From Methylocapsa sp. D3K7 (GTDB lineage Bacteria > Pseudomonadota > Alphaproteobacteria > Rhizobiales > Beijerinckiaceae): a stretch of DNA of 64,000 nt. Position numbers and translations under genes: made by a program. Of the stretch, positions 11,844-60,941 are shown one piece after another; the stretch's first letter is position 1, and each line of letters begins with the position of its first letter. The DNA lies in the NCBI RefSeq assembly GCF_029855125.1, contig NZ_CP123229.1:434001-498000 (forward strand), given 5' to 3'. The notes under the pieces are model-generated. The model searched no databases and was not told the DNA's origin. It was given only the letters and a program-made list of their open reading frames with translations.

Positions 11844-12168
11844 GATGGCCGCGACGGTAGCATGTTCCGGGCAAATTCAAAGGCCAAAGCCGCCTCGGTG
11901 AATCGCCTCGCGCAGTATTACAAGCCACGCCAACGGCCCGCAGAGTCGCTGGGCGCGCCTTTCGGCAATAAAACAATACAGACAAAGTCTATAATAATAG
12001 TATCGTTATGTAATCAAAGTCCGATCTGATAGATTAATTTGATAGATATCATGTAATTATGAGCAAAATTGTCACAACAACCAAAAAAGAAAAACATTCT
12101 CCGGGAGCGATGCTACAGGCCGCCTTGTCAAGCTTTCTCGAGGTTTTTCGAGATGTGGAGGTGACTCA
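11844..12168 (+). promoter_or_regulatory. AT-rich upstream region of the encapsulin locus
   Basis: This 325-base divergent gap holds no gene. From about 11960 to 12095 it is much more AT-rich than its surroundings and contains a direct repeat GATAGAT at 12028-12034 and 12041-12047 (13-base period, AT-rich spacer), a common layout for a transcription-factor site. A 27-base motif at 12089-12115 recurs between the two downstream genes. A ribosome-binding site (GGAGGTGA) at about 12157-12164 precedes the ATG at 12169. No promoter boxes could be assigned with confidence. Confidence 0.5.
12089..12115 (+). repeat. 27-base motif of the encapsulin locus, copy A
   Basis: GAAAAACATTCTC, a 7-base variable spacer and GATGCTA. 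The same two blocks with identical spacing occur at 15367-15393, upstream of the serine O-acetyltransferase gene. Both copies lie upstream of a start codon in the same orientation, so a shared operator is possible; a member of a genome-wide repeat family is the alternative. Confidence 0.5.
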
Positions 12169-13110
12169 ATGGCAGATGACACAGAAATAAGAAGGACTTT
12201 AAGCGAGCCGGCCGCCCGCCAGCTTGCCAATGCCACAAAAACACGGGCGCAAATGCTGGCGATCACCCCGCGCTGGCTGGTGTCGTTCCTTCCCTGGGTG
12301 CCGGTCGAGGCCGGTATCTACCGGCTGAACAAGGTCAAGGAGCGCGAGGGCCTCGGCGAGGTCGAATGCAGCCCGACGTGGGAGCGGGACACCGATCTGC
12401 CGGAAACCTTCGTCGATTATGAGACGGCCCCGCGCGAATATTTCCTCAACGCGGTCACCACCGTTCTCGATGTTCAGACCCGCGTCTCCGATCTCTACAA
12501 CCAGCCTTACGATCAAATCCAAGAGCAGCTTCGCCTGCTGATCGAAAAGGTCAAGGAGCGCCAGGAATCCGAGCTTCTTTATAATGCGGATTACGGTCTT
12601 CTCTCCAATGCCGCGCCGTTCATGAAAATTCCGACGCGCCGAGGGCCGCCTACGCCTGACGATTTCGACGAATTGATCGCCAAGGTGTGGAAAGAGCCAG
12701 CGTTTTTCCTTGCCCATCCACGCGCCATCGCCGCCTTCGGCCGCGAATGCACGCGGCGTGGTGTTCCGCCGCCAACCATCAATTTGTTCGGCACGCCGTT
12801 CTTGACCTGGCGCGGAATCCCGCTCGTCCCAAGCGACAAGCTCAAGATCACGGATGGCACTAATGGGTCCGGCACAACGACCATTCTGCTCCTGCGCACG
12901 GGCGAAAAGAAGCAAGGCGTTGTTGGGCTTTTCCAGCCAGGCGTGCCAGGCGAAGTAACCCCGAGCCTCTCGGTCCGCTTCATGGGCATCAACCGCAAGG
13001 CAATCGCGTCCTATTTGATCTCGCTCTACTGCTCATCGGCGATCTTGACCGAGGATGCGCTTGGCGTGTTGGAGAATGTGGAGGTTGGCCACTATCATGA
13101 GTATGCCTGA
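12169..13110 (+). CDS. Family 2A encapsulin shell protein (SrpI-like)
   Basis: This 313-residue HK97-fold shell protein self-assembles into a hollow icosahedral nanocompartment. It is recognised as the family 2A type, first noted as the sulfate-starvation-regulated cyanobacterial SrpI: AARQLANATKT near residue 15, ITPRWLVSFLPWVPVEAGIYR, FVDYETAPREYFLNAVTTVL, RRGPPTPDDFDELIAKVWKE and SVRFMGINRKAIASYLISLY. There is no cyclic-nucleotide-binding domain, which separates it from family 2B. The next gene, a cysteine desulfurase with a long disordered N-terminal extension, is the family's known cargo class, and the shell stop overlaps the cargo start by 14 bases. The ATG at 12169 follows GGAGGTGA. 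The assignment is secure by similarity; compartment formation in this organism is inferred. Confidence 0.93.
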   Translation: MADDTEIRRTLSEPAARQLANATKTRAQMLAITPRWLVSFLPWVPVEAGIYRLNKVKEREGLGEVECSPTWERDTDLPETFVDYETAPREYFLNAVTTVLDVQTRVSDLYNQPYDQIQEQLRLLIEKVKERQESELLYNADYGLLSNAAPFMKIPTRRGPPTPDDFDELIAKVWKEPAFFLAHPRAIAAFGRECTRRGVPPPTINLFGTPFLTWRGIPLVPSDKLKITDGTNGSGTTTILLLRTGEKKQGVVGLFQPGVPGEVTPSLSVRFMGINRKAIASYLISLYCSSAILTEDALGVLENVEVGHYHEYA

Positions 13111-15316
13111 CCCACGCCACTCGGCGGCCAGCGTGCCTTTGACCACCCCGCCCGCCCCGCAATGGGGCGGAGAGGCACCCTCCGTGATCGACCCCGGTTT
13201 GATCGCGAAGCTGGGGAATGCTTTCCTCAATGCCTCGCCTGGGCAGACGGTGGACCCTCAGGCCTTGGCAAACTTTGCCATCACGCAAGAGCGTCCCCCC
13301 GCCCCGCCCACATCCGTGCCGGGAGCTATCGGCGCGGCGGCGGCGGCGCCAGGGACAAGTGTGCCCGGCGCGCTCGCGACCGCCCCCTTCGCGGCGGGAC
13401 AGCCAGGTTATCCAACCCAATTCGGCGGCGCGCCGCCGACGGTTATCGATACCACAGGGCGCCATATTCCAGCCGCTGGTCTTGCCACCGGCGCAACGGT
13501 CCCGGCCGGTGCCGCGGGGGCGCCGCTTCTCGCTGCTGGGCTGTCCGGCCCATCGCCGGAAAAAGGCCAAGAGACGGTTCAGGGATTTCCAGGCGAGGCG
13601 GAATTGCGCGCTCTGCCGCACGGTCTCGGCCAAGCGACATCCCTGGTGCCCACCACCCTCCCCTCGGGATTTTCTCCGGCTGGTTTTTCGCACAGTTCAA
13701 TCCCGGCACAGGGTCCCGAAGCCCTCTATTTCCTCAATGAAACAGGAACGGCGGCCGCCCAGCCTTCGGTACCCGCCGCCGCACCACCCGCTTTTGAACA
13801 GAGCCCGGTGTTCCGGCCCAATTACCCGCCCGAGGCAGACCTCCGGCCGCAAGCGCCCGGCAGTGTCTCGGCGTTTCCATTAACACCTTCGCCTGCGGGA
13901 TTTTCACATGGAGCGGAGCCCGCAACCCCGGCGATCCCCGGCGAGACACTCTATTTCCTCAATGAAGGGCAAGCCGCGAGCGCGCCGGTCATGGCACCCG
14001 AGGCGCCTGTTTCAACGCCTGGATCAACCGCCGTCGCGCCGACCCTAGAGCCCGCGCTGGCGCCCGATCTCATCTCCGGCACGCGCGCCTTTGATGCTTA
14101 TGCGATCAAACGGGATTTTCCGATCCTGCAGCAGCAGGTCCATGGCAAGCCGCTGATTTGGCTTGACAATGCAGCAACGACACAAAAACCGCAGGCGGTC
14201 ATCGACCGGCTCGCGTTGTTCTATGAAACCGAAAATTCGAACATTCACCGCGCCGCCCACGCGCTCGCCGCCCGCTCGACCGACGCCTATGAGGCGGCGC
14301 GCGAAAAAGTCCGGCGATTCCTTGGCGCGGGCTCGGCCAATGAGATCGTGTTCACCCGCGGCGCGACGGAGGCGATCAATCTCGTCGCGCAAGCCTGGGG
14401 CCGCCGCAATGTCCACCGGGGTGACGAGATCGTTATCACTTGGCTCGAACATCACGCCAATATCGTGCCGTGGCAGATGCTGTGCACTGATGTGGGCGCT
14501 GTCCTGCGGGTGGCTCCTGTGGATGACAGCGGCCAGGTGATTTTGGAAGAATATACGAAACTTCTTTCGCCGAAAACGCGGCTGGTCTCGCTGCCTCAAG
14601 TGTCAAACGCGCTCGGCACCGTGACCCCGGCGCAGGAAATGGTGGCGATCGCGCACCGGCATGGCGCCTGCGTGCTCGTCGATGGCGCACAAGCCGTGTC
14701 GCATATGCCCGTCAATGTCCAAGCGCTCGATTGCGATTTCTATGTCTTTTCCGGCCATAAGGTGTTCGGCCCGACCGGCATCGGCGTGCTTTACGGCAAG
14801 CCCGACGTGCTCGCGGCGATGCCGCCTTGGCAGGGCGGCGGCAATATGATCGCCGACGTCACCTTCGAAAAGACCGTCTATCAGGCGCCGCCACTCCGTT
14901 TCGAGGCGGGTACCGGCAATATCGCCGATGCGGTCGGGCTTGGCGCTGCGATCGACTACCTCGACCGGATCGGCATGGCCAATATCGCAAGCTATGAGCA
15001 TGGGCTGCTCGACTATGCAACACAGGGGCTTCTGGGCGTGCCGGGCCTCACCATCATCGGAACGGCGAAGGAAAAAGCCGGTGTGATCTCCTTCGTGCTT
15101 GATGGCTGCCGTAGCGAGGATGTCGGCGCCGCGCTCGACCGGGAAGGCATCGCGGTACGCGCCGGTCATCATTGCGCGCAGCCAATCCTGCGACGGTTCG
15201 GACTGGAGACGACCGTGCGCCCCTCGCTCGCCCTCTACAATACCAATGAGGATATCGATGCCCTTGTTGCCGCGTTGTATAAGATTCAAACTCAAAAGAG
15301 CTATCGCGGGCATTAA
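13097..15316 (+). CDS. Encapsulin cargo: cysteine desulfurase (SufS type) with disordered N-terminal extension
   Basis: This 739-residue protein has two parts. Residues 1 to about 330 are Pro/Ala/Gly-rich and apparently disordered, as in family 2A encapsulin cargo-loading domains. They contain two tandem modules, each with an Pro-x-Glu-Ala-(Glu/Asp)-Leu-Arg element (about 163 and 243), SPAGFSH (193 and 265) and (A/T)LYFLNE (209 and 284). Residues about 332-735 are a group II PLP-dependent cysteine desulfurase: WLDNAATTQKP, the PLP Lys555 in FSGHKVFGPTG and the catalytic Cys693 in RAGHHCAQP. It would convert cysteine to alanine plus a persulfide, presumably inside the shell. The start ATG at 13097 follows TGGAGGTTGG; Met at 13103 is an alternative. 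The extension is about 100 residues longer than I recall for the cyanobacterial cargo. Confidence 0.93.
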   Translation: MSMPDPRHSAASVPLTTPPAPQWGGEAPSVIDPGLIAKLGNAFLNASPGQTVDPQALANFAITQERPPAPPTSVPGAIGAAAAAPGTSVPGALATAPFAAGQPGYPTQFGGAPPTVIDTTGRHIPAAGLATGATVPAGAAGAPLLAAGLSGPSPEKGQETVQGFPGEAELRALPHGLGQATSLVPTTLPSGFSPAGFSHSSIPAQGPEALYFLNETGTAAAQPSVPAAAPPAFEQSPVFRPNYPPEADLRPQAPGSVSAFPLTPSPAGFSHGAEPATPAIPGETLYFLNEGQAASAPVMAPEAPVSTPGSTAVAPTLEPALAPDLISGTRAFDAYAIKRDFPILQQQVHGKPLIWLDNAATTQKPQAVIDRLALFYETENSNIHRAAHALAARSTDAYEAAREKVRRFLGAGSANEIVFTRGATEAINLVAQAWGRRNVHRGDEIVITWLEHHANIVPWQMLCTDVGAVLRVAPVDDSGQVILEEYTKLLSPKTRLVSLPQVSNALGTVTPAQEMVAIAHRHGACVLVDGAQAVSHMPVNVQALDCDFYVFSGHKVFGPTGIGVLYGKPDVLAAMPPWQGGGNMIADVTFEKTVYQAPPLRFEAGTGNIADAVGLGAAIDYLDRIGMANIASYEHGLLDYATQGLLGVPGLTIIGTAKEKAGVISFVLDGCRSEDVGAALDREGIAVRAGHHCAQPILRRFGLETTVRPSLALYNTNEDIDALVAALYKIQTQKSYRGH

Positions 15317-15366
15317 AGAGCAGAAATTCCTGGGAGATAATCCTTTTCCAACCTAGAGCAAAAAGG

Positions 15367-15393
15367 GAAAAACATTCTCGCGATTTGATGCTA
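15367..15393 (+). repeat. 27-base motif of the encapsulin locus, copy B
   Basis: Second copy of the GAAAAACATTCTC-N7-GATGCTA motif, in the 113-base gap between the cysteine desulfurase stop and the serine O-acetyltransferase start. The spacer differs from copy A, while both outer blocks are identical. Confidence 0.5.
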
Positions 15394-15429
15394 AACGCTT
15401 CGGCCTGCAACCCCTCCTGATGGGCCGAC

Positions 15430-16383
15430 ATGGATTATCGACTGAAAGACAACGACGGCGGACGCGTGCAGCGGGGCTGGGATCTGCAGCAGATCGTCGG
15501 GCAGTTGCGAAATTTAAGAAGCGGTTGGCGGCAGAGTACGAAGCCCGATGGCGTCAACTACGAATTGCCATCGCAGGACGCACTCTCCGATATTCTGGAG
15601 GGAGTGTCGGCAGCGCTTTTTCCAAGGCATTTTGGCCCGGCCGGGCTCACCGAGGAAGCGGTCGATTCTTTCATCGCGCGCACACTCGACGAAGCGCTGC
15701 ATTCGCTCCGCGAGCAGGTCCGCCGTGAGCTTCGGCTCGTACCTTATCTGCCCGGCAAAGACGCGGCACAATTGGACGCGAAGGCCCACGAAATAACCCG
15801 CGCCTTCGCCGCGAAACTGCCAAAAGTGCGGGGACTTCTTGAGACCGATATTCTTGCCGCCTACCGGGGTGACCCGGCGGCCCGCAACATCGATGAAGTG
15901 CTCTTCTGCTACCCTGGAATTGTTGCGATCGCGCGCCACCGGCTCGCCCATGAGCTCTATCTTTTGGGTGCGCCTTTGCTTGCCCGCATTATTTCGGAGA
16001 TCGCCCACTCCGCCACCGGCATCGACATTCATCCGGGCGCCAGGATCGGCGACAGTTTTTTCATCGATCATGGAACCGGCGTTGTCATTGGCGAGACGGC
16101 CGTGATCGGGAAACATGTGCGGCTGTATCAGGGCGTAACGCTGGGTGCCAAGCGCTTCGCGGTGGATGAAAACGGCGCCTTGCTCAAGGGCGGCGACCGG
16201 CATCCCATTATCGAGGACGATGTTGTGATCTATGCGGGCGCGACGATTCTCGGCCGGATCACGATCAGCCGAGGGTCGTCGATCGGCGGCAATGTCTGGC
16301 TCACGCGCAGCGTGCCGCCCGGAAGCAACATCACGCAGGCGCAGGCGCGCAATGACATCTTCGTTGATGGCGGCGGGATCTGA
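15430..16383 (+). CDS. Serine O-acetyltransferase (CysE/EpsC type)
   Basis: This 317-residue enzyme makes O-acetylserine from serine and acetyl-CoA, the first step of cysteine synthesis. The C-terminal half is a left-handed beta-helix with hexapeptide repeats: GIDIHPGARIGDSFFIDHGT, VVIGETAVIGKHVRLYQG and the loop KGGDRHPIIEDDVVIYAGAT. The N-terminal helical region is longer than in E. coli CysE (273 residues), as in other copies linked to encapsulin loci. With the desulfurase and shell upstream, the cluster could couple cysteine supply to sulfur mobilisation. A 113-base gap carrying motif copy B separates it from the desulfurase, so it may also have its own promoter. No extra metal- or sulfur-carrier gene follows. 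Confidence 0.9.
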   Translation: MDYRLKDNDGGRVQRGWDLQQIVGQLRNLRSGWRQSTKPDGVNYELPSQDALSDILEGVSAALFPRHFGPAGLTEEAVDSFIARTLDEALHSLREQVRRELRLVPYLPGKDAAQLDAKAHEITRAFAAKLPKVRGLLETDILAAYRGDPAARNIDEVLFCYPGIVAIARHRLAHELYLLGAPLLARIISEIAHSATGIDIHPGARIGDSFFIDHGTGVVIGETAVIGKHVRLYQGVTLGAKRFAVDENGALLKGGDRHPIIEDDVVIYAGATILGRITISRGSSIGGNVWLTRSVPPGSNITQAQARNDIFVDGGGI

Positions 16384-58725: not shown

Positions 58726-59315
58726 CGCCTCTCCAGAACCTTGGCCCGTGGATTCGTGTAATGACGCGGCCGGCATTTCCCGGTATCCTTCAAAAATACG
58801 GCGTCGGTCAACAATGTTGATCAAGAATAAAACAGGGCGTCCAATTTTCAGCTAACTATGCAAAGATCAAGCGCAAGATCAATATGTGAACATTATAGGG
58901 GCATGATCCAGAGTGCGGCATAGTATTCAATGCCATCCAGTGCAACGGCGATATTAGAGCGCGGCATTCCGCGGCATTTGGAAGCCCTCCACGAAAGTCC
59001 TTGCCGCCGCGTCCCCTCCAGGATTCTGGTCGAAATTCTTCTGACGCGAAGGAATACACCAATCCGTCGCAGGTTGGTCAAAGATTTGCTCGCATGGTTT
59101 GATTGGGAGAGTCTTTTCTGTTACCTACCTCGGTTCTGACAAGGCTATCCATGACACAATAGTCACAACCGCCTTTGGGGCGCGAGGATAGCAGCGTCGG
59201 CTTGCGCTTAATTTGTGCAGCCTTATAGTTGGTTGCCGTTTGGTTTGGCGCTCGCGGAAGCGGAGTAGCACAGTCGGGCACTAGGTTTATCCTTTTGTCA
59301 CGCAATACGAACAGC
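58726..59315. other. 590-base gap before the tRNA-Ser gene
   Basis: No supported gene is present. Short reading frames on both strands have no recognisable domain. The stretch is of mixed composition and borders the tRNA-Ser island. Confidence 0.55.
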
Positions 59316-60243
59316 GGAGGGGTGGCCGAGTGGTTGAAGGCGCACGCCTGGAAAGTGTGTATGCGGGAAACCGTATCGCGGGTTCGAATCCCGCTCCCTC
59401 CGCCAATTCAGAACAGAACTGCGAACGCCGGGCGTAGCCGATTTTACGCCCGAGGCGGCGGCAAGGGTTCTGAGCAGATCGCCCTTCGATCCCATGATGT
59501 GGACTTCGCCGTCCGCGACCTCGACGCGCTGGGCGAGCGCGCGGAGATGATCGCGGCGATAGCCGCCGCCTTCGATCCTGATCCGCTCGCGGGCCGTCCT
59601 CGCAAACTTTTGGACCATGGCGGGCGTGATTGCCTTTTGCCCCGCGCTTTCCGTCATGGCTTGGGCGTGATCGGCGTCGGCTTGGGCCTGATCGCGGATC
59701 GCCTTGAGGACGGTGATTCGCTCCTTGAGCGCCGGATCGTCCAGATCGGCGACGCCGGTCTCGATGGCGTCATAGAGCCGCTTCAGCCGCAATTCTGTTT
59801 CGGCCGCCCGCTTGTTCAGTTCGGCGATATGCTCGCGCCTGCGTTCGGTGCGCTCCTGGCGGCGATCGAGGACTGAGGCCAGCACTTCTTCGAGCTGTTC
59901 CGGCTGTAGCAAGCGGTCCTCGATGTGGCCGGCGACAAGGTTGTCCAGCTTCTCCATCGAGATCGAGCGGCCCTTGCAGCCGGTCTCGCCCTGCCGGGCC
60001 TTTATCGAACACGTGTAATAGCGATAGCGGCCGCCCTTGCCGGTGCGCAGCGTCATGGCCCCGCCGCAATTGGCGCAAAAACAGATGCCAGTAAGGAGGG
60101 GACATAGGTTTCGACGAGCTGATAGCCGCGAAACTGACAGTAACCCTCGCCCTGTCGCTTCTGGTCCGGGATCGAGACATCATGCTCGGCCTGCCGGGCT
60201 GTCGAGATCGCAGGTAAAGGGCGGCGCGCAGTGGTACAGTCAT
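59298..60243 (-). pseudogene. Large serine recombinase, degraded (internal deletion and frameshifts)
   Basis: The C-terminal part (about 252 residues from 60056) has the recombinase zinc-ribbon CxC-x2-C (GICFCANCGG, CSIKARQGETGCKG) and the coiled-coil region. The N-terminal end at 60243 (TVPLRAALYL) matches the start of a serine resolvase domain but is frameshifted near 60213 (continuing QAEHDVSIPDQKRQGEGYCQ in another frame). Near 60100 it jumps to PLLTGICFCANC, so most of the resolvase domain (about 270 residues) is missing. The reading frame ends at 59298, after crossing the tRNA-Ser gene in antisense. Not functional as it stands. Confidence 0.85.
59316..59405 (+). tRNA. tRNA-Ser (anticodon GGA)
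   Basis: The 90-base gene has acceptor stem GGAGGGG with matching TCCCTCC, discriminator G and encoded CCA. It has the D-arm GTGGCCGAGTGGTTGAAGGC, anticodon loop with GGA in CTGGAAAGT, a long class II variable arm (GTATGCGGG/CCGTATC type) and T-arm GGGTTCGAATCCC. It is intact. It is the apparent attachment site of the island that follows. Confidence 0.97.
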
Positions 60244-60587: not shown

Positions 60588-60941
60588 TCACCCCTCCCGC
60601 TTGGTTCTTGGAGAAACCGCTAATCCAAGGAACACCAGCACGGCCTGATTGAGTCGCAGGATATCCTCGTCATCGAGACTGCCGACCCGCGCGCCGACCT
60701 TCGACTTCGGGACGGTAGTGATCTTGTCCACCATCAGGCGGCAGGCGGTGCGTAGGCCGTTGCGCTGGTTCGGCTCGACGGTCAGGCGGAACAGTGGCGC
60801 GTCCGTCTCGCCGGTGGTGAAGGCGCAGACCGTGATGGAGTCCGTCGCGTCGAAGCTATCGTCCTGAACGATGACGACGGGACGCGGTGTGCCCGCGTAG
60901 TCTTTGCCGCCGGCGACGGTCCAGATATCGTCCCGCCTCAT
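60588..60941 (-). CDS. mazF: MazF/PemK-family toxin (mRNA interferase)
   Basis: This 117-residue endoribonuclease toxin has the family blocks MRRDDIWTVAGGKDYAGTPR, PVVIVQDDSFDATDSITVCA and DKITTVPKSKVGARVG, with the Arg and Thr/Ser residues used in catalysis. It overlaps the antitoxin gene by four bases (ATGA at 60938-60941), typical of coupled toxin-antitoxin operons. It appears complete. Confidence 0.85.
   Translation of the reverse strand: MRRDDIWTVAGGKDYAGTPRPVVIVQDDSFDATDSITVCAFTTGETDAPLFRLTVEPNQRNGLRTACRLMVDKITTVPKSKVGARVGSLDDEDILRLNQAVLVFLGLAVSPRTKREG

Follow-up and report, generated by a model that had tools for sequence, protein, structure and literature searches.

A Methylocapsa family 2A encapsulin locus encoding a shell, a cysteine desulfurase cargo and a neighbouring serine O-acetyltransferase

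The SrpI/CyD system of S. elongatus PCC 7942, encoded on plasmid pANL, is represented by structures 6x8m and 6x8t (PMC8049743). In that system CyD is a proven cargo whose NTD is needed for loading, the YFL motif alone being insufficient, and cargo docking motifs of the LARLANEFFS and YYFLDG types were published (PMC8049743). The same source reports that the shell rises on sulfur starvation, that encapsulation raised the activity approximately sevenfold, and that the knock-outs displayed no growth defect (PMC8049743). In a 2021 survey, serine O-acetyltransferase (SAT) and rhodanese were given as the most enriched accessories (PMC8346489), while Benisch et al. 2024 claim in their title that an encapsulin stores elemental sulfur.

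The window analyzed here is a stretch of 64 kb (G000:C1:434001-498000) from a source genome of 4.15 Mb in one contig. Reading of the open frames revealed three genes on the + strand, none with internal stops: a SrpI-like family 2A encapsulin shell of 313 aa (12169..13110, + strand; PF19307, NF041162, phmmer), a SufS-like cargo cysteine desulfurase with a low-complexity N-terminal extension of approximately 330 residues (13097..15316, + strand; NF041166, SufS model), and an EpsC/SrpH-type SAT of 317 aa with the C-terminus DGGGI (15430..16383, + strand; NF041874, phmmer). The initial annotation had described three adjacent co-directional genes, and all three were recovered intact in that arrangement. 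The best explanation, which we hold to be about 85% probable, is an ordinary family 2A encapsulin in which the desulfurase would be packaged by way of its arm and the SAT would be cytosolic, its connection with the shell being common regulation.

The window shell is 65.7% identical to the S. elongatus shell. Common to both loci are a SufS-like cargo, a probably disordered N-terminal arm, a YF docking motif and, next to the shell, the same type of SAT; that of S. elongatus is 319 aa long, lies directly before srpI and is 56.2% identical to the window SAT. The gene order is cysK-SAT-srpI-cyd-rhodanese on the plasmid but shell-cargo-SAT in the 4.15-Mb contig, and unlike S. elongatus the window contains no cysK or rhodanese match; the gene overlap and the duplicated docking module described below are further features in which the window differs. 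In Acinetobacter baumannii, which we take to be the species of the sulfur storage study, the family 2A shell is 64.5% and the SAT 55% identical to those of the window, the SAT lying on the same strand approximately 280 bp upstream of the shell, whereas the window SAT follows the cargo. Among the matches listed, relatives from Methylocapsa, Methylosinus and Rhodopseudomonas have shells 77-90% identical to that of the window, followed by the cargo; the position, strand and presence of the SAT vary among them (best 80 of at least 576 loci). The closest shells, among the matches listed, belong to a Hyphomicrobiales MAG (89% identity), Methylocapsa palsarum (90%) and M. aurea (90%), in agreement with the "Rhizobiales-like" genome originally assumed.

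Based on comparison to curated models, the shell scored 505.2 bits against the family 2A shell model NF041162 (cut-off 380), in keeping with its first description as SrpI-like, and 353.9 bits against PF19307 (cut-off 22.8), which was its sole Pfam match and occurs once in the source genome. The E-values of the curated family models (5e-152 and 2e-253) are far beyond chance. The closest solved chains in phmmer searches were of the SrpI type (E 1.6e-128 to SrpI 6x8m and 3.2e-132 to 8t6r), and homology to these shells points to an HK97 capsid fold; the AlphaFold model of the shell, from an alignment of 13 sequences, had a pLDDT of 35, too low for use. A check against encapsulin family models, 2A and 2B among them, had been recommended. 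Besides the 2A model, the NCBIfam 2B model NF041163 also exceeded its cut-off (433.5 bits, cut-off 400), with a best stretch confined to positions 205-450, the capsid half. The N-terminal cNMP-binding domain of family 2B was absent from the 313-aa shell, as judged from Pfam and from the 2B-model alignment.

The shell and cargo genes overlap by 14 bases, as annotated, provided that the cargo starts at ATG 13097. This candidate start is preceded by GGAGG at 13080-13084 and corresponds to a Met in the consensus of 19 aligned cargoes; the alternative start, ATG 13055, would give an overlap of 56 bases with the shell gene. The cargo scored 842.9 bits against the family 2A cargo model NF041166 (cut-off 800) and 578.6 bits against the SufS subfamily model TIGR01979 (cut-off 475.1). 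The motifs SGHK and GHHCAQP, presumably holding the catalytic Lys (PLP) and Cys (persulfide) with roles as in SufS, were invariant across the 19 aligned cargoes. The SufS model starts at residue 350 counted from 13055 and at residue 336 counted from 13097, which confirms the length of approximately 330 residues first given for the extension. Its composition (A 19%, P 17%, G 11%, 9% charged, no Cys) makes the disorder claimed for it probable.

Both published classes of docking motif were located in this extension. Motif 1, IAKLGNAFL (13202..13228, + strand; published LARLANEFFS), is a slightly deviant form of its class, while motif 2 (YFL class; published AASPYYFLDG) was found twice, as ALYFLNE (13721..13741, + strand) and TLYFLNE (13946..13966, + strand), at the ends of module copies 1 and 2, respectively. 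The motifs were counted in 71 of the 73 cargo frames from the best 80 of at least 576 shell loci, L046 and L048 being omitted for want of an LDNAAT anchor. The IAxLANxFF-type motif 1 was present in 68 of the 71 extensions, compared with a mean of 0.7 and a maximum of 3 in 200 shuffles, and the YFL motif in 58 (shuffles: mean 1.7, maximum 7), with two copies in 12 extensions and three copies in one. Two 67-residue segments of the window, each closing with one of the YFL copies, aligned with a score of 97, against 66 for the best of 1000 shuffles, and after removal of the YFL part the score was 73, against 65 for the best shuffle. Since the similarity lies above all 1000 shuffles, motif 2 sits in a duplicated module. 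Eleven of the 13 relatives with at least two YFL copies scored higher than 293 or more of 300 shuffles in the same comparison; L010 and L038 did not.

The distribution of the genes was followed in 99 genomes, the source genome included, and in the best 80 of at least 576 confirmed shell relatives. Of the 99 genomes, 17 carry the shell. A cargo match of E 1e-200 or better was obtained in 16, every one of which belongs to these 17; in 15 of the 16 the cargo was above the curated cut-off. In the seventeenth shell genome (G005:C353; L144, L148) the cargo matches came as pieces in two frames, so that this gene is broken or misassembled. Of the 80 loci, 74 have the cargo behind the shell (73 by tblastn and L030 by frame reading), and the remaining six contigs stop less than 1 kb from the shell. 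As tblastn overlooked the L030 cargo, the tblastn counts of SAT and cysK are lower bounds. Because all 16 cargo genomes have the shell and the SAT is distributed more loosely, shell and cargo are an inherited unit and the SAT a frequent companion. The family 2A shell with a cysteine desulfurase cargo that had been claimed is thus upheld by the curated models and by this co-occurrence.

The locus lies among housekeeping genes, namely those for carbonic anhydrase, nitronate monooxygenase and an ogt-type protein, together with greA and, labelled by eye, carB. The same flanking genes recur with unchanged order in congener G005, and in G011 and G008 the shell and cargo lie near greA/carB, with no SAT in the fetched stretch. 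Based on these settings, the encapsulin site looks vertically inherited. The G+C content of the three genes is 0.59-0.64, close to that of the window, 0.57. Elsewhere in the window, a frame whose product has a recombinase zinc-ribbon domain (59298-60056, - strand) overlaps tRNA-Ser (59316-59405, + strand), and a PemK-like toxin gene lies nearby at 60588-60941; this region is a possible edge of an integrated element.

The third gene was confirmed as a SAT by its score of 161.9 bits against NF041874 (EpsC; cut-off 150). Against the cysE model TIGR01172 it scored 172.5 bits, under the cut-off of 210.65, and phmmer aligned residues 45-309 with 3f1x (E 6.8e-78). This SAT type (E 1e-60 or better) was present in 18 of the 99 genomes, namely 11 of 17 with the shell and 7 of 82 without it, and was thus missing at that threshold from six shell genomes. 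In six of the 11 (G000, G004, G005, G013, G031 and G041) it lies a few kb from the shell, and in five at least 22 kb away or on another contig. A SAT of any type was detected in the fetched stretch, on either side and either strand, at no fewer than 52 of the 80 loci (best 80 of at least 576; tblastn); among the complete linked SATs, 19 belong to other types, with less than 50% identity. The mean lengths of 34 linked and 12 unlinked SATs were 314 and 316.5 aa, respectively, and proteins just as long are found in shell-free genomes. Taken with the 319-aa SAT of S. elongatus, these lengths show that the longer N-terminus is the normal form of this type; the annotation was correct that it exceeds that of CysE, yet it is usual among these proteins.

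A tree of 52 rows, which carried a long-branch warning and from which SATs below 44% identity were left out except the two CysE of the source genome itself, placed the linked SATs in no single clade. At least six changes of label were forced by well-supported branches, and the clustering of the linked label exceeded that of 494 out of 500 shuffles. The C-terminal Ile of SAT is a known CysK-docking residue. The two other SATs of the source genome end in AGE and LRS, and that of the window in DGGGI; the Ile was found in 28 of 34 linked extended SATs, 19 of 19 linked SATs of other types and 10 of 12 unlinked SATs (counted without three duplicate rows, cut frames and L170, which has less than 50% identity). 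It was considered as an encapsulin-specific mark and rejected, because its presence in 10 of the 12 unlinked proteins indicates that it marks the SAT type. One CysK above the cut-off was identified in the source genome. Genes for cysK with 76-83% identity to the pANL cysK were located near the encapsulin in L008, L010, L029, L030, L033, L034, L040, L063, L066 and L068, and cysK-SAT-shell-cargo is a recurring set, any cysK match being counted at 24 or more of the 80 loci (best 80 of at least 576).

An element of 27 bp, GAAAAACATTCTC-N7-GATGCTA, precedes both the shell and the SAT gene. Copy 1 (12089..12115, + strand) is 53 bp upstream of the start codon of the shell gene, and copy 2 (15367..15393, + strand) is 36 bp upstream of that of the SAT gene, cargo and SAT being spaced by 113 bp. 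No other exact copy occurs in the 4.15 Mb of the genome, and a reversed-pattern control gave 0 matches there. A further exact GAAAAACATTCTC at 3212203, between open frames, has no GATGCTA half. A third genomic site, G000:C1:3462446, was rejected as a coding coincidence since it falls inside a 273-aa open frame, and five look-alikes of it in congeners, judged by letter likeness only, were set aside as well.

A looser pattern, constructed from the window, L002, L003 (G002), L004 (G004) and L005 (G013), was used with at most two mismatches to search 30 chosen genomes of the 99. It identified 26 places, of which 8 were before the shell, 3 before the SAT and 15 elsewhere; as the reversed pattern gave 15 places in total, those elsewhere look like background. 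The element precedes the shell in eight of nine congeneric shell genomes (G000, G002, G004, G005, G007, G009, G011 and G013) and the SAT in three (G000, G005 and G013). Four of the shell sites (G005, G007, G009 and G011) and one SAT site (G005) come from genomes that played no part in designing the pattern. The ninth congener, G008, has a weaker form, which 1 of 100 shuffles equalled. The element was absent before the SAT of M. aurea (G004) and, at up to two mismatches, was not found before the shell in seven shell genomes of other genera, so that among the genomes searched it is confined to one genus. Its letters suggest an operator, GARAA-N3-TTYTC forming a near palindrome, or an alternative promoter, and its occurrence before both genes suggests co-regulation. 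Rfam gave no match at gathering scores at the locus, and a scan for promoter and terminator consensus sequences gave nothing usable. No description of the shared element was found in the literature searched, and it is a modest new lead on co-regulation. The coupling to cysteine metabolism that had been proposed gained support from this element and from the SAT or cysK genes near the shell in other genomes.

Other explanations of the three genes were weighed against this evidence. A phage capsid or prophage remnant is an extremely improbable identity for the shell gene; a better score as a phage capsid had been named as a finding that would overturn the encapsulin reading. Encapsulins share HK97 ancestry, and matches to PHROG families were indeed obtained, but these were weak (21.8 bits for the head-protein family phrog_212 and 24.6 bits for a second family, of unknown function) and far below the 505 bits to the family 2A model, the shell is flanked by housekeeping genes in the order seen in G005, and only two of 50,697 phage records matched, both with mmpI beside sufS. 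These two records (CAKLQH020000001.1 and CAKLQF020000001.1) are named "Acinetobacter phage" and exceed 300 kb each; the pairing of mmpI with sufS indicates that they probably contain host DNA. The suggestion that the SAT associates with the shell through its longer N-terminus, as a second cargo or a surface partner, draws on the adjacency of its gene to the shell-cargo pair and on residues 1-44, which were unaligned to 3f1x, the closest solved SAT. It was not sustained and is very unlikely, as SATs of equal length and the same type occur in shell-free genomes and the type is missing, at E 1e-60, from six shell genomes, 19 complete linked SATs belong to other types, the linked proteins are not a clade, the SAT of S. 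elongatus is built alike, and the N-terminus has no YFL motif by eye. That the SAT is instead a chance neighbour, or a case of loose gene clustering with no functional link to the shell, would agree with the forced label changes on the tree, with the five shell genomes that keep it at a distance and with G011 and G008, where the shell lies near greA/carB without it. The frequency of a SAT or cysK near the shell, the upstream element common to shell and SAT in three genomes and the clustering of the linked label make this quite unlikely.

A rather unlikely alternative of another kind accepts the same encapsulin but has the desulfurase deliver persulfide sulfur to the assembly of Fe-S clusters or cofactors, the shell restricting the acceptors. 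The SufS-like character of the enzyme (578.6 bits) is in its favour, as are one SufE and two SUF-like gene clusters (labelled by eye) in the source genome, and a rhodanese-acceptor model has been proposed (PMC8346489). Each SUF-like cluster, however, has its own desulfurase, so that no need for an encapsulated supply is apparent, and at E 1e-5 nothing in the window matched the S. elongatus rhodanese. Based on PF00266, 11 matches were identified in the source genome, 10 above the cut-off and five exceeding 170 bits; the five are the cargo, a member of each SUF-like cluster, a gene adjoining the first cluster and a further one in a nif-like cluster, the clusters being labelled by eye. The SUF-like clusters lie at G000:C1:922000-935000 (L102) and 2290000-2304000 (L100), each with a SufS-type desulfurase.

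The preferred reading, an ordinary family 2A encapsulin with packaged desulfurase and cytosolic SAT, would operate as follows, by analogy with other species from which assembly, loading and activity are known. The shell protein would assemble into a small icosahedral compartment, and the desulfurase, translated directly behind the shell across the 14-base overlap, would be drawn inside by its long, probably disordered arm with one IAxLANxFF-type and two YFL-type motifs. Once packaged, it would take sulfur from cysteine and leave alanine, and the sulfur may be held, or released under sulfur stress; such a storage or mobilization role in this organism, which we infer from the described relatives, agrees with the literature. 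The SAT would act in the cytosol to make O-acetylserine, from which cysteine synthase would then turn sulfide into cysteine, its tie to the shell being the common upstream element and not packaging.

As the compartment type and its SAT neighbour were known before, the locus is one further member, in an arrangement ordinary for the family. More tentatively, with odds somewhat short of even, the encapsulin-cargo pair and the SAT of the Methylocapsa lineage may form a dedicated sulfur regulon with two promoters, in which one regulator reads the element. A Rrf2-family regulator is one candidate reader. Rrf2-type genes were found in 6 of the 80 loci, M. palsarum included (best 80 of at least 576), and M. 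trichosporium and S. elongatus likewise have one close to the shell; no Rrf2-type gene was found within the 64-kb window. Rrf2 and cupin genes lie near the encapsulin in M. palsarum (L003 2852-4091) and Methylosinus trichosporium (L192 5506-9900), unlike the window, in which neither was found. The duplicated docking module lends itself to asking whether cargo per shell rises with the number of docking sites. If the regulon is real, cysteine synthesis and desulfuration into the compartment would be switched on together as a cycle, and the shared element would provide a handle on the switching of sulfur compartments in methanotroph relatives.
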